A stretch of 49,503 nt of DNA from a bacterium (GTDB lineage Bacteria > Elusimicrobiota > Elusimicrobia > UBA1565 > UBA9628): NCBI GenBank assembly GCA_021806745.1, contig JAJZQS010000004.1:1-49503 (forward strand), written 5' to 3'. Below, one piece after another: positions 437 through 23,495 of the stretch (positions are counted from its first letter, which is position 1; every line of letters begins with the position of its first letter). The translations under genes and the position numbers were made by a program. The notes under the pieces were generated by a model. The model made no database searches and was not told the DNA's origin. It worked only from the letters and a program-made list of their open reading frames with translations.

Positions 437-1627
437 GTGTCCCGCTACCTCGTGCTCGGCGCCGGCTTCCAGGGCCGCGCCTGCGCCTACGACCTGAGCC
501 GCAGCCCCGGCGTCACGCAAGTCGCCCTGGCCGACGCGTCCCCGCAGGCCCTGGCTTCGGCCGGCGCGTTTCTGCGCAAGGCGGCTCGCGGAGCGCGCGT
601 GCGCCTGTTGCGCCTGGACGCCGCGCGCCCCGCCGAAATCGAGCGCGCGGCGCGCGAAGTCGACGCGGTCGTGTCCTGCGTCCCCTACTTCCTGAACCTG
701 CCGCTGGCCGAGGCCGCCGTGCGCGCCGGGACGCACTTCGTCGATCTCGGCGGCAGCACCGACATCGTGCGCCGCGAATTGGCCCTGCACGCCCGCGCCA
801 AGCGCGCCGGAGTCTGCGTTCGCCCCGACAACGGTCTAGGGCCGGGCATGATCTCGACTTTGGCCGTGGCCGCGATGAACCGCCTTGACCGGACCGACGA
901 GGTGCGCATCTACGACGGCGGCCTGCCGCAAAATCCCGTGCCGCCGCTCAACTACATGCTGACCTTCTCCGAACACGGGCTCATCAACGAGTATGCCGGA
1001 ACCGCCGTGGCCCTCGTCGGCGGCCGCGTCGTGCGACGGCCCGCGCTCTCGGACCTGGAGACCGTCGAGGTTCCGCTCTTGGGACGCCTGGAGGCCGGAC
1101 ACGCGGCGGGCGGGCTGTCGACGCTGGCCGAGACCTACGCGGGCCGGGTGCGCACGATGTACAACAAGTTCTTGCGCTACCCCGGGCACATCCCGGCCAT
1201 GGAGGCGATGCGCGAGATGGGGTTTTTCGACGAAACGCCGCTCACGCTGCGCCCCGGCGTCAGGTTCGCGCCGCGGGAATTGGCGGCCAAGCTCTTTCGC
1301 CGCCACTTCGAGCGGCCCGGCGAGCGCGACCTCGTCGTCATCCAGGTCGTCGCGCGCGGAGTCAAGGACGGCGCCCCGGCCGAGGTGGTCTGCGACATGC
1401 TCGACCGCTACGACCCCAAGACCGCGATGACCGCGATGATGCGCACGACCGCGTTTCCCGCCTCGATCGTGGCCCAACTCGCGGCCGGCGGCCGGCTCGA
1501 GCCCGGCGCCTTCCCCGTGGAGACCGGAGTGCCGCCGGACCTGTTCCTGGCCGAGGCCGCCAAGCGCGGCTTCAAGCCGAAGTGGACGCTCCGGCGCCCG
1601 GCGCTCAAGCCCCGCGCGAAAGCCTAG
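437..1627 (+). CDS. Saccharopine dehydrogenase-like NAD(P)-dependent oxidoreductase
   Basis: A protein of 396 residues. The N-terminus (YLVLGAGFQGRACAYDL) is a Rossmann GxGxxG nucleotide-binding motif. It is followed by a DVVSC-like segment (VDAVVSCVPYF) and G(T)HFVDLGG, characteristic of the saccharopine dehydrogenase / lysine 6-dehydrogenase family. A C-terminal catalytic-like region includes DNGLGPGM. Members use NAD(P) to form or split amino-acid imine adducts, but the substrate cannot be read from sequence and no lysine genes are adjacent. GTG is chosen because the Rossmann fold begins at residue 3 and an extended -10 box lies 7 nt upstream. The 3' end overlaps the converging small membrane gene by 23 bases. 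Confidence 0.8.
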   Translation: MSRYLVLGAGFQGRACAYDLSRSPGVTQVALADASPQALASAGAFLRKAARGARVRLLRLDAARPAEIERAAREVDAVVSCVPYFLNLPLAEAAVRAGTHFVDLGGSTDIVRRELALHARAKRAGVCVRPDNGLGPGMISTLAVAAMNRLDRTDEVRIYDGGLPQNPVPPLNYMLTFSEHGLINEYAGTAVALVGGRVVRRPALSDLETVEVPLLGRLEAGHAAGGLSTLAETYAGRVRTMYNKFLRYPGHIPAMEAMREMGFFDETPLTLRPGVRFAPRELAAKLFRRHFERPGERDLVVIQVVARGVKDGAPAEVVCDMLDRYDPKTAMTAMMRTTAFPASIVAQLAAGGRLEPGAFPVETGVPPDLFLAEAAKRGFKPKWTLRRPALKPRAKA

Positions 1628-1943
1628 GCCGGCGCCGCAATCCCGACAGAGCCAGAATCGCGCCGCCGAGGATCGTCCCTCCGACGGCGAACGGCGCGCC
1701 CGCCGCGGCCGCGCCAAGCAAGGCCTTCCAGCGCGCGCGCTCGGGCGTGTCGCCGCCGTAGCGCAGCTGGACGCGCCGCACGACCGCGAAACAGGCGGCA
1801 AACGACGCCGCGCACGCCAGCGCCAAGGACACCGGGCCGAACTCCCAGCCCAGGCCGAAAAACAGCCAATCGATCCCGAGAATCGCGACGCCGCTGAGCG
1901 GATGGAAGAACTCTCGGCCGGGCGCGGCCGCCGGTTCGCTCAC
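1605..1943 (-). CDS. Small membrane protein of unknown function
   Basis: A protein of 112 residues starting with GTG at 1943, which overlaps the stop of the upstream gene as GTGA. This indicates translational coupling. After a short hydrophilic N-terminus there are two hydrophobic segments (around VAILGIDWLFFGLGWEFG and VSLALACAASFAACFAV), an arginine-rich loop (RRVQLRYGGD) and a third, C-terminal hydrophobic stretch rich in Gly/Ala. I do not recognise the family. It probably works with the membrane protein encoded just upstream. A longer open frame extends upstream to 2522, but that part is antisense-type composition and is not coding. Confidence 0.6.
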   Translation of the reverse strand: MSEPAAAPGREFFHPLSGVAILGIDWLFFGLGWEFGPVSLALACAASFAACFAVVRRVQLRYGGDTPERARWKALLGAAAAGAPFAVGGTILGGAILALSGLRRRPRLSRGA

Positions 1944-2686
1944 GGGCCGCCGTCGACGGACTTCTCGGCCGCCTTCTCCTGCGCGCGCGAGACGGCCTGG
2001 CGCAGTTGATCGTTTTCGGCCACCATCTTCTCCAGGGCCCGGCTCAGGTTGTCGAGCAGTGAATTGACGGTCAAGACGGTCTTTTTGAGCTCCGGGTCCA
2101 ACTTCTCGTCGATCTCGAGTCCCCAGCCGCCGTTGGCCAGCCGCTCCAGCGCCAGCCTCAACTCCAAGGTCTTCGCCCGTCGATCGCCCGCGCGCACGCG
2201 GTGGGCCATGACCGCGGTGAAGAAGGCCACGATGTAGAAAAACACGAAGCGCAGCAGGAGGTCCTCCAGCGGCACGCCCACGGCGGCCTTGCCCTCGAAC
2301 CAAAGAGCCGCGTAGGTGAGGCTTGAGACCGTGCCGATGAGAAAGCTCTGGCCGACCTGGGTCATGAGGCCCGACATGAACATGATCAGGAAATACATCA
2401 AGTACAGCTCGTTGTCCAATCCCTCGCTGGTGTAGACCAGCCCGGTCACGATGCCCACGTCCCAGAGATAGGCCAAGCCCTGCGCCAACGGAGTGTTGAG
2501 ACGGGCGTCGCGCAGACGCCACAAGAGCAGACTCGTGAAGAGGTAGAAGACCGCGGCGGCGTAGGGGCCCGGCCCCACGGGCGCCTGATGGTAGCCGCTG
2601 TAGGACAACATCAGCACCAGCGACGCGAACACCAGAACGCGAAACGCGAAAACGGCCGACTTATCGTCCAGGGAAAACGACTCCAT
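1940..2686 (-). CDS. Multipass membrane protein with C-terminal coiled coil (sensor-like, no output domain)
   Basis: A protein of 248 residues with about five or six hydrophobic segments in the first ~165 residues, arranged like the membrane sensor part of histidine kinases (MASE/7TM-like). A basic turn (HRVRAGDRRAKTLELRL) leads into a predicted coiled coil with phrases such as LTVNSLLDNLSRALEKM and ENDQLRQAVSRAQEK. No kinase, GGDEF or other output domain follows. The Asn-Ser-Leu-Leu-Asp-Asn-Leu stretch recalls a dimerisation helix, but no phospho-acceptor His is present there. It forms a two-gene unit with the overlapping small membrane protein. Function unknown; a truncated sensor or membrane scaffold is possible. 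Confidence 0.65.
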   Translation of the reverse strand: MESFSLDDKSAVFAFRVLVFASLVLMLSYSGYHQAPVGPGPYAAAVFYLFTSLLLWRLRDARLNTPLAQGLAYLWDVGIVTGLVYTSEGLDNELYLMYFLIMFMSGLMTQVGQSFLIGTVSSLTYAALWFEGKAAVGVPLEDLLLRFVFFYIVAFFTAVMAHRVRAGDRRAKTLELRLALERLANGGWGLEIDEKLDPELKKTVLTVNSLLDNLSRALEKMVAENDQLRQAVSRAQEKAAEKSVDGGP

Positions 2687-2786
2687 TTGAATCAGTGTGC
2701 CCCCCCCATCGACGCTTGTAAAGACCCATTCGTGAGAATTCAGAATGAATTAATCAGCCCGTTAGAATAATGATAATTTTGGGCGC

Positions 2787-2815
2787 TTCACGAGCGGGGC
2801 GCAATCTGTTAGACT
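2787..2815 (+). promoter_or_regulatory. Promoter of the cyclophilin lipoprotein gene
   Basis: TTCACG (2787-2792), a 17-nt spacer and TGT TAGACT (extended -10, hexamer 2810-2815) lie 6 nt before the ATG at 2822, a leaderless layout. The upstream 2700-2780 stretch is notably AT-rich for this window and could contain an UP element or the opposite promoter. Confidence 0.7.
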
Positions 2816-2821
2816 GCGCCC

Positions 2822-3562
2822 ATGCCCACGAAATCCTTCGCCGTGCTCTTTTGCGCCGCGCTGCTTGGCGCCGCCGCCTGCGACAAGAAATCTCCGGCCG
2901 CCTCCTCGTCCGCCCCGGTCCCAGCACCCGCCGCGCCGCCCCCGGCCGTGCCCATCCCCGCTCCGGCCGCGCCCGCGGCGGCGGCCTCCGCCTTGATGTC
3001 TCCCGAAAACGCGACCGCGAAGGCTCCCGACGTCTTCAAGGTCAAGCTCGTCACGACCCAGGGCGACATGGTCCTGGAAATCCACCGCGCCTGGGCGCCC
3101 AACGGCGCCGACCGCTTCTACAACCTGGTCAAGATCGGCTTCTTCGACGGTTGCGAGTTCTTCCGCGTGCTCGACGGCTTCATGGCCCAGGTCGGCATCC
3201 ACGGCGACCCCGCCGTCGCGGCGAAGTGGCAGAACGCGAACATTCCCGACGACCCGAATGTCCCGTCGGTGTCCAACACCCGCGGCATGGTCAGCTTCGC
3301 CACCGCGGGGCCGAACACGCGCACGACGCAGTTCTTCATCAACTTCGCCGACAACTCGACGCTGGACTCGCAGGGATTCACGCCCATCGGCAAGGTCGTG
3401 TCGGGAGATGCGGTGCTCGACAAACTCTACCGCGGCTACGGCGAGGGCGCGCCTCAAGGCAACGGCCCCGATCAGGGCCGCATCCAAGCCGAGGGCAACG
3501 CCTACCTGAAGTCTCAATTCCCCAAGCTCGACGCCATCGTCAGCGCGCGGCTGATGCCCTGA
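2822..3562 (+). CDS. Cyclophilin-type peptidyl-prolyl isomerase, lipoprotein
   Basis: A protein of 246 residues. A short basic N-terminus and hydrophobic stretch end in a lipobox, LGAAAC, so Cys20 should be lipidated after signal peptidase II cleavage. A Pro/Ala-rich linker (~25-58) is followed by a cyclophilin domain: TTQGDMVLEIHRAWAPNGADRF, FFRVLDGFMAQ (FHRV region, with FR in place of the usual HR), RGMVSFA and TTQFFINFADN. The protein should catalyse proline isomerisation during folding of exported proteins in the periplasm. Replacement of the usual FHR histidine by Phe occurs in some bacterial cyclophilins and may lower activity. A second, cytoplasmic-type cyclophilin is encoded at 11297-11803. 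Confidence 0.88.
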   Translation: MPTKSFAVLFCAALLGAAACDKKSPAASSSAPVPAPAAPPPAVPIPAPAAPAAAASALMSPENATAKAPDVFKVKLVTTQGDMVLEIHRAWAPNGADRFYNLVKIGFFDGCEFFRVLDGFMAQVGIHGDPAVAAKWQNANIPDDPNVPSVSNTRGMVSFATAGPNTRTTQFFINFADNSTLDSQGFTPIGKVVSGDAVLDKLYRGYGEGAPQGNGPDQGRIQAEGNAYLKSQFPKLDAIVSARLMP

Positions 3563-3633: not shown

Positions 3634-5190
3634 ATGCGACGCGCGTTCGCCGTCGTCACTTGGTCGGTTCTCGCGCTGAGCGCGCGCGCCGCCGTCCCGG
3701 CCTTCGTGCCCGCGCCTTCCTCCGTCTCGGACGGCGACGCGCTCTTCGACGGCCGCGCGCCGCTGGCCGCGGCGGGCCTCGACGCGGGGCAAGACTCCTC
3801 CGCCGGCCTCAACGCCTGGCTCGACATGGAGCGTCAAGTCGCCCTGCAGAAAATGGAGGCCAACATCTCGCCGCCGGGCGCCGCGCCCGGCGCCGTGGCC
3901 GCCTCGCCCTCCCACGCCGATCCGGATTACTGGTACAACTGGCGCAGAGACGCGGCGCTGACCATGGACGAGGTCGTCACGCTCTACAATCAGGCCGCAG
4001 ACCCCGCCCAACAGGCCGCCTACGGCAAGATGCTCGACGACTACGCCGCCTTCGTGCGCCGCGAGCAGACGGCCCAAACGCTCACGGGGCTCGGCGAGCC
4101 CAAGTTCAACATGGACGGCACGCCCTTCAACGGACCATGGGGCCGCCCGCAAGACGACGCTCCGGCCGAGGAAGCCAGCGCGCTCATCCACTACGCCGCC
4201 GCGCTGATCGCTCAGGGCCAGACGGCCAAGGCCAAAGCCCTCTACGGCGACTTCCAGACCGGCATCAAGGCCGACTTGGAGTATGTCTCGCACCATTGGC
4301 AGGAGACCAGCTTCGACGTGTGGGAGGAGGTCAAGGCTCACCATTTCGACACCGAGATGGCCCAGCGCACGGCGCTGCTGGAAGGCGCGTGGCTGGCCGA
4401 CCAGCTGGGCGATCCCGGGGCCGCGGCCTGGTACAGCGAGCAGGCCTCCGCGCTCAAGGACGCCATCCGCGCGCATTGGGATCCGCAAAACGGCTACATC
4501 GACTCCGCGCTCGACCAAGACGGCGGACTCAACTACAAGTCCAGCGACCTGGACTCGGCCGTGATCCTTGGCGCCATTCATCGCCGCAACCTCGACGCCC
4601 AGGCCGAGACCGGCGCCCAACTCCAATTCTTCGCCCCGGACGACCCGCGCGTGCTGGCCACCGCCGAGGCCCTCAAGTCCAAATTCCGCACCGAATACCC
4701 GATCAACGCCGCAGGTCCGGGCGTGGCCATCGGGCGCTACCCCGAGGACCAATATTTCGGCGGCAACCCCTGGCCTCTGCTGACCGCCGCCTACGCCCAA
4801 CTCGAGTACATGGCGGCGCTGGATTTCCTCCAGCAGGGCTCCATCCCCATCGAAGGCAAGGATTTGGCTTTCTTCCGCGATCTTCCCCTGTCTTCGGCCG
4901 ACAAGGCCGCGCTGTCGGCCGGGCAGACCGTCGCGGCCGGAGATCCGCTGTTCCTGCGCCTGATCACGGCGCTGTCCGATGACGGCGACCAGGAACTGGC
5001 CTGCATCCGCGCGCACGCCTACCCCGACGGCTCCCTTTCCGAGCAGATGGACCGCAACAGCGGCTACATGACTTCCGCCAACGATCTCACTTGGAACTAC
5101 GCCGCCATGCTGACCGCGCTTCAGGCCCGCGACGCGCTCGCCGCGGCACGAGGCGCCCTGCCGTTGGCCGCCGCCCGCACCCACCGCTGA
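3634..5190 (+). CDS. Secreted glucoamylase, glycoside hydrolase family 15 (fungal-type)
   Basis: A protein of 518 residues that should release glucose from the non-reducing ends of starch or glycogen. MRRAFAVVTWSVLALSARA is a clear Sec signal peptide. The catalytic domain follows the fungal glucoamylase pattern closely: VAASPSHADPDYWYNWRRDAAL, GLGEPKFNMDGTPF, GPWGRPQDDAPA, SFDVWEEV and DLTWNYAAMLTA. The first Glu of WEEV (about residue 231) matches the general acid (A. niger E179). The Glu of LSEQ (about residue 470) matches the general base (E400). There is no starch-binding domain. The start at 3634 is preferred over the ATG at 3625 because the latter overlaps the -10 box. Close similarity to eukaryotic enzymes raises the question of transfer. 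Confidence 0.9.
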   Translation: MRRAFAVVTWSVLALSARAAVPAFVPAPSSVSDGDALFDGRAPLAAAGLDAGQDSSAGLNAWLDMERQVALQKMEANISPPGAAPGAVAASPSHADPDYWYNWRRDAALTMDEVVTLYNQAADPAQQAAYGKMLDDYAAFVRREQTAQTLTGLGEPKFNMDGTPFNGPWGRPQDDAPAEEASALIHYAAALIAQGQTAKAKALYGDFQTGIKADLEYVSHHWQETSFDVWEEVKAHHFDTEMAQRTALLEGAWLADQLGDPGAAAWYSEQASALKDAIRAHWDPQNGYIDSALDQDGGLNYKSSDLDSAVILGAIHRRNLDAQAETGAQLQFFAPDDPRVLATAEALKSKFRTEYPINAAGPGVAIGRYPEDQYFGGNPWPLLTAAYAQLEYMAALDFLQQGSIPIEGKDLAFFRDLPLSSADKAALSAGQTVAAGDPLFLRLITALSDDGDQELACIRAHAYPDGSLSEQMDRNSGYMTSANDLTWNYAAMLTALQARDALAAARGALPLAAARTHR

Positions 5191-5232
5191 GCACCGCGCC
5201 TCTGGCACAAGCGTTGCCTTACTAAGGGGCGC

Positions 5233-8200
5233 ATGCCCGCCAACAAATCCATCCTGGACGGCAACGCGGCCGTCGCCGACGTGGCCTACCGCCTCAGCGA
5301 GGTGGTGTCGATTTTTCCGATCACGCCGTCGTCGGCCATGGGCGAGTGGGCCGACCAGTGGTCCGGCGAGGGACGCGCCAATCTCTGGGGCGACGTTCCG
5401 CTCGTCTGCGAGATGCAAAGCGAGGGGGGTGCGGCCGGCGCCGCGCACGGCGCGCTGCAGGCGGGCGCGCTGGCGACGACTTTCACCGCCTCGCAAGGCC
5501 TTCTGCTGATGATTCCGAACATGTACAAGATCGCCGGCGAACTGACCTCGGCGGTCTTCCATGTCGCCGCGCGCAGCGTCGCCGCGCACGCCCTGTCGAT
5601 CTTCGGCGACCACGGCGACGTGATGGCCGCGCGCCAGACCGGCTGGGCGATGCTGTGCTCGCACGACGTCCAGGAAGCGGCGGACATGGCCGCGATCGCG
5701 CACGCCGCGACGCTGGAAGCGCGCGTGCCCTTCGTGCATTTCTTCGACGGCTTTCGCACCAGCCACGAGATCGCCGACATCTCCCTGCCCGATGACGCCG
5801 TTTTGCGCGCGCTGCTGGGGCCGGACGCGGGCCGCGCGCACCGCGAACGGGCGCTGACGCCCGACCGGCCGGTCCTGCGCGGCACGGCGCAAAATCCCGA
5901 CGTCTTCTTTCAATCCCGGGAGGCGGCCAATCCCTACTATGACGCCGCGCCGGATGTCGTGCGGCGCGCGATGGCGCGCTATGCGAAGCTGACCGGCCGC
6001 GACTACGGCCTCTACGACTACCACGGGGCGCCGGACGCCGAGCGCGTGGTCGTGGTCATGGGCTCGGCCGCGCAGACCGTGGCCGCGACCGTCGACGCGC
6101 TCAACGCGCGCGGCGAGAAGGTCGGAGTGGTCAAGGTCCGACTCTACCGCCCCTTCGACGCCGCCGCTTTCGCCAAAGCTTTTCCCGCCGCGACGAAAGC
6201 GGTCGCCGTGCTCGACCGCACCAAGGAGCCGGGCTCGGTCGGCGAACCGCTGTTTCTCGATGCGCTGGGCGCGCTTGAACGCGCGCTGTCGGCCGGAACG
6301 GCGCCGTTCGCCTCTTTGCCGCGGCTGATCGGCGGACGCTACGGGCTGTCGTCCAAGGAATTCACGCCGGCGATGGCCAAGGCCGTCTTCGATGAACTCG
6401 CCGCGCCCAAGCCGCGCGCGCGTTTTTCCGTCGGCATCCGCGACGACGTCACCGGGCTGAGCCTGGACCATGACCCTTCTTTCTCCGCCGAAAACGGCGA
6501 CGCGTTCCGCGCGGTGTTCTTCGGCCTGGGCTCCGACGGCACGGTCGGCGCCAACAAAAATTCGATCCACATCATCGGCGAGGGCGCGGATCAGCATGTA
6601 CAGGCGTATTTCGTCTACGACTCCAAGAAGTCGGGGGCGATGACCGTGTCCCACCTGCGCTTTGGCCCCAAGCCGATCCGCGCGCCGTATCTCATCGAGC
6701 GCGCGGACTTCTTGGCCTGCCACCAGGACTCCTTTCTGGGGCGCTTCAAGATGCTGGAGCTCCTGGCGCCGGGGGGCGTGTTCCTGCTCAACACCTCCGT
6801 GCCCGCCGAGTCGGTCTGGGCGAGCCTGCCGCGCGCGGATCAAGAACTCATCCGCGCCAAGAAGCTGCGCGTGTTCGTCATCGACGCCTACGCGCTCGCG
6901 CGCGAGCAGAAGCTCGGCGGACGCATCAACACGGTGATGCAGACCTGCTTTTTTGCGATCTCGGGGGTGATCGCGCGCGACAAGGCGCTGGCCGCCGTGC
7001 GCGACTCCATCCGCAGAAGCTACGGGAAAAAATCCGAGGAGATCGTGCTGCGCAACCTCGCGGCCGTCGACGCGACGCTGTCGCGTCTGCGCGAGATCAA
7101 AATCGCGGGCGAGATCAACGGCGCCGCCGCCGCGCCCTCGGGCTTCGACGCGCACGCGCCCGAATTCGTCTCGCGAGTGCTCGGGCGCATCTACGCCGGC
7201 GACGGCGACGCGCTTCCGGTTTCGGCCCTGCCCGCCGACGGCACATTCCCCACCGGCACCGCGCGCTACGAAAAGCGCGCGCTGGCGCAAGATGTGCCGG
7301 TCTGGGATCCGGCCTGCTGCATCCAGTGCGGCAAATGCGCGCTGGTCTGCCCGCACGCCGCCATCCGCCAAAAGGCCGTGCCCGAGGAACTGCTGGCCGG
7401 CGCGCCCGCGGACTTGCCTTCGGCGCCGGCCAAGGACTTGGAGTGGAAGGGACACCGCTACCTCCTCCAGGTCTCGCCCGACGACTGCACCGGCTGCGGG
7501 CTGTGCGTGGACGCCTGTCCGGCGCGCAACAAGTCCGAGACGGGGCTCAAGGCCATCAACATGACGCCGATCGCCGCCGTGCGCGAGCGCGAGAGGCGGC
7601 GTTGGGCCCGCTTCGTCGAACTGCCGGAGACGGACCGCGCCCGCATAAAACCCTCGGCGATCCGTTCCCAGCAGTTCCAGCAGCCGCTGTTCGAGTTCTC
7701 CGGCGCCTGCGCCGGCTGCGGCGAGACCCCCTATTTGAAGCTGCTCAGCCAACTTTTCGGCGATCGGCTGCTCGTGGCCAACGCCACCGGCTGCTCGTCG
7801 ATCTACGGCGGAAACCTTCCCACCACGCCCTGGGCCAAGAATCCGGAAGGCCGCGGCCCGGCCTGGTCGAATTCACTGTTCGAGGACAACGCCGAGTTCG
7901 GCCTGGGCCTGCGCCTGGCGCTCGACCACGCCGAGCTGTCGGCGCGCGGCCTGCTGGAAGCGTTGGCCGACCGCCTTGACGCCGACTTGGCGCGCGAAAT
8001 TCTAGGCGCGCGCCAAGACGACGAGGCGGGAGTGCGCGAGCAGCGCGCCCGTCTGGAACGCTTGAAGCCCGCGCTCGCCGCGCTCGACGATCCGCGCGCG
8101 AGGCGCCTGGAGTCGAACCTTTCGGCGCTTTCGCGCAAGAGCGTGTGGATCGTCGGCGGCGACGGCTGGGCCTACGACATCGGCTACGGCGGCCTCGACC

Positions 8201-20480: not shown

Positions 20481-20990
20481 ATGTTTCCCCTCGGCCATCT
20501 CGGCATCGGCCTGCAGACCGCCAAGCCCTTCGATCGCGGACTGCCGCGCGCGCCGCTGCTGCTGGGCACGCTGCTTCCCGACCTCATCGACAAACCGCTC
20601 TACTACGGCCTGTCCTGGTACACCGGCCGCCACGGCGCGGCGCTGGGGCTGATCTCGGGCACGCGCACCTTCGGTCACACGATCTTGTTCACGCTGGCGA
20701 TCGCCGCCGCCGCGCGCCTGCGGCGCTCCCGCGCGCTCGCGGCCCTGGCCTTGGGCTGCGCGACGCACTTGGCGCTCGACATGCTGACCGATCTCGTGAT
20801 CCGCGCGCCGGGGTTCTCGGCGCGGGCGTTTTTCTGGCCGCTGCTCGGCGCGCGCTTCCCGATCTACACCTACCGAGGCTGGCACGACCACCTCCTGCAC
20901 GTGCGCGAGCCCTTCCTTCTGGCCTCGGAGATCGTCGGCGCGACGATTTTGCTCGTCGAGTGGCGTCGGCGCGCGCCGGTTCGGCCTTAA
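20481..20990 (+). CDS. YdjM-type membrane-bound metal-dependent hydrolase family protein
   Basis: A protein of 169 residues with four hydrophobic segments. MFPLGHLGIG near the N-terminus, LLGTLLPDLIDKPLYYG, HTILFTLAI and CATHLALDMLTDL place His/Asp residues as in the LexA-regulated YdjM (PF04307-like) membrane family, thought to be metal-dependent hydrolases. A final segment RGWHDHLLHVREPFLLASEIVGATILLVEW ends the protein. GTG at 20478 is an alternative start. Biochemical function is not established for the family. The 3' end overlaps the converging EamA gene by 4 bases. Confidence 0.7.
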   Translation: MFPLGHLGIGLQTAKPFDRGLPRAPLLLGTLLPDLIDKPLYYGLSWYTGRHGAALGLISGTRTFGHTILFTLAIAAAARLRRSRALAALALGCATHLALDMLTDLVIRAPGFSARAFFWPLLGARFPIYTYRGWHDHLLHVREPFLLASEIVGATILLVEWRRRAPVRP

Positions 20991-21865
20991 GTCGGGAGAA
21001 TTTCCTTTTGGCGCCCGCGCTTGGGCGCGAGCTTGGCCAACTCTCCGGCCATCATCGCCGCCACGATCAACGCGCCGCCGGCCGCGCGTCCCGGGGAAAA
21101 CGGCTCGCCGCCCAAAGTCCACGCGAACAACGCCGCGAACACCGGCTCCAGAGAGAAGATCAGACTGACCTTCACCGGCGCGACGGACTTCTGCGCCTTC
21201 ATCTGCAGGAAAAACGCAGACAGCGTCGGCACGCCGGCCAAGAATGCGATCGTCGCGCCCGCGCGAGGGGAGACCGAAAACGAGCGCCTCGACGCCGCCG
21301 CGTACGCGGCGGCCAGGACCCCGGTCATCCAGAACTGGTGGAACGCGAGCACGATCACGTCCGCGTCGGCGCGCACGAAGCGGTCGGTGGCGAGCAGATG
21401 CGCGGCGTAGGTCGCCGCGGCGATGAGGGTGATCGCGTCGCCGAAGTTCGCGCGGCGCACGCCGCCGGTCAGCAGCCACAGCCCGGCCAGCGCCAGCGCC
21501 GAAGACGCCCATTGCGCTCTCGTCGGCGGGCGGCGCAGGAAAATCAGCAGAAACGCCGGCACGAAGATGACGAAAAGCCCCGTGATGAAGCCGGAGTTGG
21601 AGGCGGTCGTGTACTTGAGGCCGATCGTCTGCGAGACATAGAGCAGAAACAGCAAGACGGCGAGCAGCGCGCTTTCTTTCAAATGCCGCGCGCGCGCGCG
21701 GCGCGCCAGCGCGAACGGCGCCAACAGAAGCGCCGACAGCAGGAAACGGTCGGCGACCATGGCCACCGCGTCCACGCCGGCGAGCGCGTCCTTGACCAGG
21801 AAGAAGGTCGCGCCCCAGACGGCGGCGCAGTAGACCAGCCCCAGCTCAGCCCAGGACGGCGTCAC
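20987..21865 (-). CDS. EamA/DMT-superfamily transporter
   Basis: A protein of 292 residues with ten predicted membrane helices in two repeats of five. Typical EamA phrases are LVYCAAVWGATFFLVKDAL, RFLLSALLLAPFAL, TTASNSGFITGLFVIFVPAFLLIFLRR, ALALAGLWLLTGG and the second-repeat SLIFSLEPVFAALFAWTLGGEPFSPGRAAGGALIV. The family exports amino acids, purines or other small metabolites; the substrate is unknown. The GTG start lies inside the 3' end of the folD-like gene (20-base overlap), so the two are co-transcribed. Confidence 0.88.
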   Translation of the reverse strand: MTPSWAELGLVYCAAVWGATFFLVKDALAGVDAVAMVADRFLLSALLLAPFALARRARARHLKESALLAVLLFLLYVSQTIGLKYTTASNSGFITGLFVIFVPAFLLIFLRRPPTRAQWASSALALAGLWLLTGGVRRANFGDAITLIAAATYAAHLLATDRFVRADADVIVLAFHQFWMTGVLAAAYAAASRRSFSVSPRAGATIAFLAGVPTLSAFFLQMKAQKSVAPVKVSLIFSLEPVFAALFAWTLGGEPFSPGRAAGGALIVAAMMAGELAKLAPKRGRQKEILPT

Positions 21866-22733
21866 GGGGTCGCGCGGGGCGGCGCAGCGGCGCGTTCTTG
21901 GCGCAATAGACGAGATTGACGAAGGTCATCGCGCGCGTCAACGCCCCCAGCCGGTTGTCTGGCGCGGTGGCGTAGGCCGCGCGCGCGGCGACCGCGGCGT
22001 GATCGGCATTGCCCTGGAAGGACACGTCGACGAAGGCCGCGCCGGGCTTAAGCCAGTTCGCGTCCAGCCGAAAGGAGGGATCGGGCACCGCGGTCACGAC
22101 GACGTCGGCGCGACGCACGCACTCCTCCAGAACGGCTCGCGGGGTCTTGTCGTAGCACTTGACCACGGTGGCGCCCAGGTTCTCGAGCATCAGGCCCAAG
22201 GGCTTTCCCACGCGCATCGAGTTGTTGATGATCGTCACGAACGCGCCTTCCAGCCGGATGTCGGGGTAAGCCTGAAGAAGCTTCACCGCGGCCTTGGCCG
22301 TGGCCGGAACCACGCACTTGATCGCGCGGGCCTCGTCGAGAAAGCGCTTGTATTTGATCAGGTAGCCGAGATTGGTCGAATGAAGTCCCTCCACGTCCTT
22401 GAGCGGCGAAACCAAGTCCATCACATCCTCGTCGCGCAGCCCGCAGCCGAGCGGGTAGAACAGCATGAGGCCGGTGGTCCCGCGGTCCGCGTTGAGACGG
22501 CGCACCGACGACAGGAGCTCCCGCTCGTCGGCGGCCTCGACGCCGTCGGCGACGACGCCCAGGCGCGCCGCGTCCTTGGCGATCAGGTCCCGGTATTGGC
22601 GAGACGCCGGGTGAAGATCGGGCCGCAGCAGCAGCGTGGCCAACCGCGGCTTGCGCCGCATCACGGCGATCTCGCGCGCGGCCCAAGCCAGGTAGCGCGC
22701 CGCGACCGCGCGGCAATCGAGGATGACGGCCAT
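21846..22733 (-). CDS. FolD-family methylenetetrahydrofolate dehydrogenase, apparently without cyclohydrolase site (MTD1-like)
   Basis: A protein of 295 residues with a complete FolD fold: HPASRQYRDLIAKDAARLGV, GLMLFYPLG, SPLKDVEGLHSTNLGYL, VVPATAKAAVKLL and the dinucleotide region VTIINNSMRVGKPLGLMLENLGATVV. Aligned by eye to E. coli FolD, the catalytic Lys54 is Ile (Y-R-D-L-I), Gln98 is Phe (LFYPL instead of VQLPL) and Asp121 is Glu (KDVEG). These are the residues needed for cyclohydrolase. The pattern with KDVEGL and INxSxxVGxPL resembles yeast Mtd1, a monofunctional NAD-dependent dehydrogenase. Predicted reaction: 5,10-methylene-THF to 5,10-methenyl-THF. It shares a promoter region with divergent tlyA. 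Confidence 0.82.
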   Translation of the reverse strand: MAVILDCRAVAARYLAWAAREIAVMRRKPRLATLLLRPDLHPASRQYRDLIAKDAARLGVVADGVEAADERELLSSVRRLNADRGTTGLMLFYPLGCGLRDEDVMDLVSPLKDVEGLHSTNLGYLIKYKRFLDEARAIKCVVPATAKAAVKLLQAYPDIRLEGAFVTIINNSMRVGKPLGLMLENLGATVVKCYDKTPRAVLEECVRRADVVVTAVPDPSFRLDANWLKPGAAFVDVSFQGNADHAAVAARAAYATAPDNRLGALTRAMTFVNLVYCAKNAPLRRPARPRDAVLG

Positions 22734-22737
22734 GGTT

Positions 22738-22744
22738 TATACTA
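22738..22744. promoter_or_regulatory. Shared symmetrical -10 element between divergent genes
   Basis: TATACTA contains TATACT on the plus strand (22738-22743), 5 nt before the tlyA ATG at 22749. It also contains TAGTAT on the minus strand (22744-22739), 5 nt before the folD-like ATG at 22733. The two start codons are separated by only 15 bases, so both transcripts would begin at or near their start codons from one melted region. Confidence 0.6.
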
Positions 22745-22748
22745 TCAC

Positions 22749-23495
22749 ATGCCTTCGCGCGAGCGCTTGGACTCGGCCCTGGTCGCGCGCGGACTTTTCG
22801 AAACGCGCGCCAAGGCCCAGGCCGCGGTGATGGCCGGGCTCGTGCTCGTCGATGGGCGTCCGGCGGCGAAGGCCGGCCAAGCCGTGGCCGAGGACGCCGC
22901 GCTGACTCTGAAGTCCGATCCCTGTCCTTTCGTCTCGCGCGGCGGACTCAAGCTGAAGGCCGCGCTCGACGCGTTCGCGCTCGACGCGCGCGGCGTCGTG
23001 GCCCTCGACGTCGGCGCATCGACCGGCGGCTTCACGGACTGCCTGCTGCAGGCGGGCGCCGCGCGCGTCTACGCCGTGGACGTGGGCACGGCTCAACTGC
23101 ACCCGCGCCTGCGCGCCGACGCGCGCGTGGTCTGGCGCGAAAACACCCACGCCCGGCTGCTGCGTCCGGAATGGTTCAAGCCTCGTCCGACTCTGGCCGT
23201 GGCCGACGTCTCATTCATCTCGCTGGCGCAAGTCCTGCCGTTCATCGCGGCCTGCCTGGAGCCTGCGGCCGACCTCGTGGTGCTCGTCAAGCCGCAATTC
23301 GAGGTCGGCCCCAAGCTCGCTCCCAAGGGAGTGGTCCGCGACCCCGCGGTCCGGCTGGCCGCGGTCGAGAAGATCGTCTCCGCCGCCGCGGCGCTGGGGC
23401 TGGCGGAGATCGGCCGAATCGAATCGCCCATCAAGGGTCCGAAGGGAAACGCGGAGTTCCTGCTGCGGCTTAAGTGCCGCGATGTGTTAGGATGA
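22749..23495 (+). CDS. tlyA: TlyA-family rRNA 2'-O-methyltransferase (hemolysin A family)
   Basis: A protein of 248 residues. The N-terminal S4 domain (RERLDSALVARGLFETRAKAQAAVMAGLVLVDGRP) is followed by SRGGLKLKAALDAF and an FtsJ/RrmJ-type SAM-binding domain (VALDVGASTGGFTDCLLQAGAARVYAVDVG), then VADVSFISL and LVVLVKPQFEVG, the K-D-K-E-type catalytic positions. Characterised TlyA proteins 2'-O-methylate cytidines in 16S and/or 23S rRNA. A longer upstream frame to 21999 is antisense to the folD-like gene and is not coding; the ATG at 22749 fits the S4 domain and the promoter. Confidence 0.93.
   Translation: MPSRERLDSALVARGLFETRAKAQAAVMAGLVLVDGRPAAKAGQAVAEDAALTLKSDPCPFVSRGGLKLKAALDAFALDARGVVALDVGASTGGFTDCLLQAGAARVYAVDVGTAQLHPRLRADARVVWRENTHARLLRPEWFKPRPTLAVADVSFISLAQVLPFIAACLEPAADLVVLVKPQFEVGPKLAPKGVVRDPAVRLAAVEKIVSAAAALGLAEIGRIESPIKGPKGNAEFLLRLKCRDVLG
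23485..23493 (+). promoter_or_regulatory. Extended -10 box of the receiver/zinc-ribbon gene
   Basis: TGT TAGGAT (hexamer 23488-23493) lies over the tlyA stop codon and ends 7 nt before the GTG at 23501. An ATG at 23492 is created by the box plus G and would precede the predicted transcript start. Confidence 0.5.

Follow-up and report, generated by a model that had tools for sequence, protein, structure and literature searches.

A FolD-family gene of Elusimicrobiota that probably encodes a monofunctional methylene-THF dehydrogenase of the yeast Mtd1 type

Introduction

Yeast Mtd1 (PDB 1EDZ, 1EE9) is a monofunctional NAD-dependent 5,10-methylene-THF dehydrogenase. The conserved-domain entry cd01079 covers monofunctional dehydrogenases of yeast and of certain bacteria, and a bacterial member would therefore not be unprecedented. 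Some bacteria, for example Clostridium perfringens (a title cited in PMC7219735), possess a dehydrogenase and a separate FchA cyclohydrolase. In bifunctional FolD, represented here by the E. coli enzyme (PDB 1B0A) and the DC domain of human MTHFD1 (PDB 1A4I), the active site contains a Lys/Gln/Asp triad, Lys54, Gln98 and Asp121 in E. coli. The catalytic lysine is held in position by the glutamine, and the pterin head group by the aspartate (PMC3338484, PMC3368264). The E. coli K54N mutant keeps ~19% of the dehydrogenase activity with undetectable cyclohydrolase, and Q98H keeps about 8% of the dehydrogenase and an estimated 1% of the cyclohydrolase (PMC5688156).

Here we analyse a FolD-family gene from an Elusimicrobiota MAG. 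The stretch of DNA studied, called the window, has 49,503 nucleotides and forms contig 9 in an assembly of 2.78 Mb (183 contigs, ~94% complete). An earlier note on positions 21846-22733, which did not state the strand, had proposed an enzyme with all three cyclohydrolase residues replaced.

Results

The gene and its neighbours

The interval is occupied by one intact ORF on the minus strand, flanked as follows.

22733..21846, minus strand: gene for the putative Mtd1-like methylene-THF dehydrogenase, 295 aa, ATG at 22733, stop ending at 21846
20987..21865, minus strand: EamA-family transporter gene (Pfam PF00892), which shares 20 bases with the dehydrogenase gene
22749..23495, plus strand: divergent TlyA-like rRNA methyltransferase gene, named from sequence resemblance

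The window protein scored above the curated cut-offs of both Pfam domains, with 54.1 bits for PF00763 (cut-off 32.8) and 85.2 bits for PF02882 (cut-off 27), and its AlphaFold2 model, with a mean pLDDT of 86 and the lowest confidence at residues 119-132 and in the last eight, has the FolD fold, with a TM of about 0.8 to FolD structures. These domains and this fold place the protein in the THF dehydrogenase/cyclohydrolase superfamily. With none of the NCBIfam FolD models listed did it come near the cut-off, the best giving 126.3 bits where 401 are required, and 1EDZ (Mtd1) did not appear in the 50 best structural matches to the predicted fold.

The EamA gene is a probable co-transcribed neighbour of the dehydrogenase gene. 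The start codons of the dehydrogenase and tlyA-like genes are 15 bases apart (22733-22749), and consequently at least one promoter would have to sit inside the opposite gene; the spacing is similarly tight in several genus relatives. The EamA/TlyA neighbourhood is kept within the genus only, other families carrying unrelated neighbours, and a comparison of genus relatives with other families yielded no metabolic clue from the gene neighbourhood.

Two catalytic residues of the cyclohydrolase are replaced throughout the family

The window gene and 31 relatives (32 members) were aligned with E. coli FolD and yeast Mtd1, using reference sequences 100% identical to PDB 1B0A and 1EDZ, respectively. 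The positions of interest are these.

22593..22595, minus strand: Tyr47 codon, equivalent to E. coli FolD Tyr50, kept in 32/32 members
22581..22583, minus strand: Ile51 codon, replacing the catalytic Lys54 of E. coli FolD; I/M/V in 32/32 members
22458..22460, minus strand: Phe92 codon, replacing E. coli FolD Gln98; F/L/M in 32/32 members
22389..22391, minus strand: Glu115 codon, at E. coli FolD Asp121 (the pterin carboxylate) and within the KDVEGL motif; E in 32/32 members and in yeast Mtd1
21945..21956, minus strand: NRLG segment replacing the FolD PGGVGP loop, with N and R invariant in 32/32

The alignment with E. coli FolD is gap-free across ASRQYRDLIAKD, TGLMLFYPLG and PLKDVEGLH. The three replacements that the earlier note had read from a manual alignment, Lys54 to Ile, Gln98 to Phe and Asp121 to Glu, hold both here and across the 32 members, and the window protein (Ile51, Phe92, Glu115) does not have the residues of a bifunctional FolD. 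A realigned triad could be ruled out, since the region is gap-free in all members and no adjacent residue restores it. Mean column identity was 71% in the 30-member family alignment, and pairwise dN/dS between the window gene and six genus relatives was 0.13-0.26; this residue state is therefore conserved and selected, and the gene is under strong purifying selection. The same dN/dS values, together with the presence of the changes in every member, rule out a sequencing accident as their source, and dN/dS and conservation likewise rule out a pseudogene.

Since isoleucine and phenylalanine occupy the lysine and glutamine positions, and given what K54N and Q98H do to E. coli FolD, loss of the cyclohydrolase is predicted; the mutant data (PMC5688156) thus lend support to the same prediction in the earlier note. 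The description of all three positions as cyclohydrolase residues stands for Lys54 and Gln98 and needs amending for Asp121, which is mainly pterin-binding and not cyclohydrolase-specific (PMC3338484, PMC3368264). Its change to glutamate more plausibly reflects an adjustment of substrate binding. Similarly, the scaffold is intact only in part. The window protein shares with bifunctional FolD the fold, both Pfam domains, Tyr50 and about 30% identity, but it has DNRLG for the PGGVGP loop, NNS for the GRS cofactor motif and a shorter hairpin.

Residues predicted to favour NAD

Two residues of the human enzyme, Arg173 and Ser197, contact the 2'-phosphate of NADP. The corresponding segments of the window gene are as follows.

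22194..22226, minus strand: dinucleotide-binding segment NNSMRVGKPLG (FolD: GRSxxVGxP), with Asn171 in place of the Arg contacting the NADP 2'-phosphate
22149..22151, minus strand: Asp195 codon at the human Ser197 position (2'-phosphate contact), a predicted NAD determinant

Asparagine stands at the Arg173 position in 32/32 members and aspartate at the Ser197 position in 29/32. Because both 2'-phosphate contacts are replaced, the bacterial protein is probably NAD- rather than NADP-dependent, which agrees with the NAD use predicted earlier. Yeast Mtd1 retains the arginine that is asparagine in the bacterial family, so the residues behind a preference for NAD would differ in part between the two. 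Ser197 and its MTHFD2 counterpart, Arg233, are discussed in PMC9173628.

Likeness to Mtd1 and the question of ancestry

At the triad positions Mtd1 has Thr/Tyr/Glu and the window protein Ile/Phe/Glu, compared with Lys/Gln/Asp in FolD; all 32 members lack the lysine and the glutamine and carry Glu at the pterin position. Mtd1 and the window protein have in common the KDVEGL and INxSxxVGxPL patterns and an RFLDE/RYLDK loop, and neither has a PGGVGP loop. The segment before helix 3 is 16 residues long in the family and in Mtd1, versus 15 or 17-19 in FolDs, and a 19-residue loop after Asn127 is also common to the two. A one-residue insertion (VPDPSFRL / VPSENYKF) is present in 32/32 members and in Mtd1 and in 0/66 FolDs. 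The GK-VGDV hairpin is shortened to 8 residues in the family and 11 in Mtd1, and it has at least 15 in all but one FolD. The family thus has indels in common with Mtd1 and not with FolD, and the match to Mtd1 first noted for the two sequence patterns extends to the residue pattern, to segment lengths and to an insertion absent from 66 FolDs. Mtd1 differs from the window protein in having extra insertions in its dinucleotide domain.

Overall identity does not favour Mtd1, the window protein being 27% identical to Mtd1 and 30% to E. coli FolD. Profile searches are in line with the likeness to Mtd1: the family profile gave Mtd1 121 bits, inside its range of 87-135 for other PDB FolDs, whereas a profile of the co-resident FolDs scored other FolDs at 221-312 bits and Mtd1 last, far behind at 93.5. 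In the maximum-likelihood tree the family was joined to Mtd1 (93/97), a union of a long branch with a very long one (3.0 changes per column on the terminal branch to Mtd1). FolDs of the order stayed with other Elusimicrobiota FolDs (88/85). On these sequence comparisons, shared ancestry of the bacterial family and Mtd1 is favoured but unproven. The family might instead be a lineage-specific duplicate of an Elusimicrobiota FolD that converged on Mtd1-like features and has the same function. This is an unlikely alternative that nevertheless carries some weight: trees constrained to unite the family with the co-resident FolDs (AU p=0.23) or with all Elusimicrobiota FolDs (AU p=0.13) were not rejected, Glu121 also occurs in the co-resident FolDs, and a longer loop after residue 127 is present in Elusimicrobiota FolDs too. 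It is opposed by both groupings of the unconstrained tree, by the one-residue insertion, which is found only in the family and Mtd1, and by the hairpin, which is equally short only there and in one FolD.

Distribution of the gene

The gene was found in 32/47 genomes of the same order (the window's own included) and in 0/11 more distant genomes, 58 in total. Across the phylum it was present in 29/295 genomes, two of these in another family of the class, and the profile scores in the 295 genomes formed two groups, members at 432-536 bits and other FolDs at most 148. The survey beyond Elusimicrobiota consisted of one genome-contig scan and one plasmid scan. In the former, the members with more than 50% identity over a long match were all Elusimicrobiota or untitled MAGs, the remainder being FolD-like at 28-33% or short partial matches; in the latter, the matches listed were FolD-like sequences at 31-33%.

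A second, altered FolD in the same genomes

The genome of the window protein encodes another FolD.

Contig 30, 2758-3183, minus strand; L001, 1489-2346, minus strand: second FolD, whose gene overlaps the terminal part of an ORF for an apparent ketopantoate reductase

This protein keeps Lys54 and has Glu98 and Glu121, so that neither FolD-family protein of the genome has the classical triad. Its GRS and HSR/HSK residues are those found in NADP-dependent enzymes. In a set of 48 FolDs from families that have the Mtd1-like gene, Lys54 was found in 39, Gln98 in none (Glu in 28, Asp in 12, others in 8) and Asp121 in 3. Outside these families, eight of nine FolDs of the class were canonical. In FolDs of related families, position 98 is Glu or Asp and sometimes hydrophobic, and position 121 is mostly Glu. 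The FolDs of two genomes of one family (f13) have Lys/Glu/Asp and may be intermediate. Three genomes (G002, G005 and G017, 91-100% complete by estimate) contain the Mtd1-like gene and no other FolD that could be found even with a specific profile; a fourth, G012, was not counted, its FolD fragment ending 3 bases from the end of a contig.

As a separate observation, in six FolDs of Pseudomonas and Salinicola (L054-L059, about 4980-5880, plus strand) the second strand of the dinucleotide domain is followed by HSRS, HSHS or HSKS, where E. coli and P. aeruginosa FolD have HRFT. These six are ~50% identical to E. coli FolD and may form a distinct FolD group.

The rest of the one-carbon pathway

The earlier note had expected another cyclohydrolase in the genome. 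A second FolD does exist, but with Glu98 and Glu121, and neither a stand-alone FchA nor formate-THF ligase was found in this genome; across the 58 genomes, the search for the ligase gave one sub-threshold match of 54 residues only. As in bacteria with a dehydrogenase and FchA, the two steps would lie on separate proteins, but unlike in those bacteria the only FchA-related domain (FTCD_C) is the end of a full-length FTCD, whose gene is close to an apparent imidazolonepropionase gene. With the NCBIfam FchA model, whose cut-off is 275, this cyclodeaminase domain reached 100 bits. FTCD_C was present in 49/58 genomes, and FTCD is also common in relatives without the Mtd1-like gene. 5-Formyl-THF cycloligase (PF01812) was not found in the genome, though it has a full-length FTCD.

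The genome encodes consumers of 10-formyl-THF, namely PurN, PurH and a second formyltransferase. A 729-residue ORF (L163, contig 183, roughly 1100-3290, plus strand) consists of a PurN formyltransferase fused to PurH (MGS and AICARFT domains). In a second PurH-like protein (L162, contig 162, roughly 1000-2530, plus strand), VKL stands at the AICAR transformylase Lys-His motif, which is FKH in the fused copy, and this second protein may be catalytically altered.

Without formate-THF ligase, carbon must arrive via methenyl-THF, either from methylene-THF oxidation or from histidine. This leaves the altered FolD, the FTCD cyclodeaminase domain and spontaneous hydrolysis as candidates for the cyclohydrolase step, the last having been proposed for carolacton-resistant E. 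coli mutants (PMC5688156). The Mtd1-like enzyme could also work mainly in the reductive direction, converting methenyl-THF, for example from FTCD and histidine breakdown, to methylene-THF with NADH and not feeding purine synthesis. The position of the FTCD gene, the frequency of FTCD_C among relatives and the failure to find the ligase fit such a role. We consider it doubtful, and somewhat more so than a lineage-specific duplication, since PurN, PurH and the second formyltransferase need 10-formyl-THF whose carbon has to pass through methenyl-THF, and since FTCD is frequent in relatives that do not have the Mtd1-like gene as well.

Discussion

We propose that the gene product is a 5,10-methylene-THF dehydrogenase of the yeast Mtd1 type, monofunctional and probably NAD-dependent, a reading to which we give a probability of about 0.74 and for which we infer activity, cofactor and direction from the sequence. 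Folate would be held in the usual FolD cleft, with Tyr47 stacking and Glu115 replacing the pterin-binding aspartate, and hydride would be exchanged between methylene-THF/methenyl-THF and NAD. The enzyme would not be expected to take methenyl-THF on to 10-formyl-THF, as Ile and Phe stand in place of the lysine and glutamine that this hydrolysis requires. The second FolD would interconvert methylene-THF and methenyl-THF with NADP, and the Mtd1-like enzyme would probably act beside it, as Mtd1 acts beside an NADP-dependent trifunctional enzyme in yeast. Hydrolysis of methenyl-THF might then be carried out by the altered FolD or by the FTCD domain, or proceed spontaneously.

More tentatively, a large group of Elusimicrobiota may have no FolD-family protein with an intact triad. 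The work would be divided between a Mtd1-like dehydrogenase of the NAD type and an altered FolD of the NADP type (Lys54, Glu/Asp98, Glu121), 10-formyl-THF would come from another cyclohydrolase (such as the FTCD domain) or from spontaneous hydrolysis, and in a few genomes the Mtd1-like protein would perhaps be the sole FolD-family enzyme. We put this forward as a possible but, on balance, unlikely picture.

Two further readings have much less in their favour. With 27-30% identity to characterised enzymes and the PGGVGP loop of FolD lost, the protein might be a pseudoenzyme or act on a different pterin or other substrate; this is very unlikely, as there is almost no variation at Tyr50, at the pterin carboxylate position or in the nucleotide-binding segment, the active dehydrogenase Mtd1 likewise has no PGGVGP loop, and purifying selection is strong. 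Least probable is that the protein is still bifunctional through a rearranged active site, as its conservation and the three near-complete genomes with no other FolD might suggest, since all 32 members are without a lysine or general base at position 54, position 98 is hydrophobic and K54N abolishes detectable cyclohydrolase in E. coli FolD (PMC5688156).

Routine superfamily annotation is likely to label the Mtd1-like protein a bifunctional FolD and so to credit the organism with a cyclohydrolase that this protein probably does not provide. If our reading is correct, a conserved bacterial family joins a kind of enzyme best known from yeast and provides bacterial sequences with which the loss of cyclohydrolysis and the change of cofactor in Mtd1 can be traced. 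It would also lead one to ask how bacteria with neither formate-THF ligase nor a standard FolD make 10-formyl-THF for purines. The co-resident FolD, changed at two of the same positions, is of greater interest than the Mtd1-like protein by itself.
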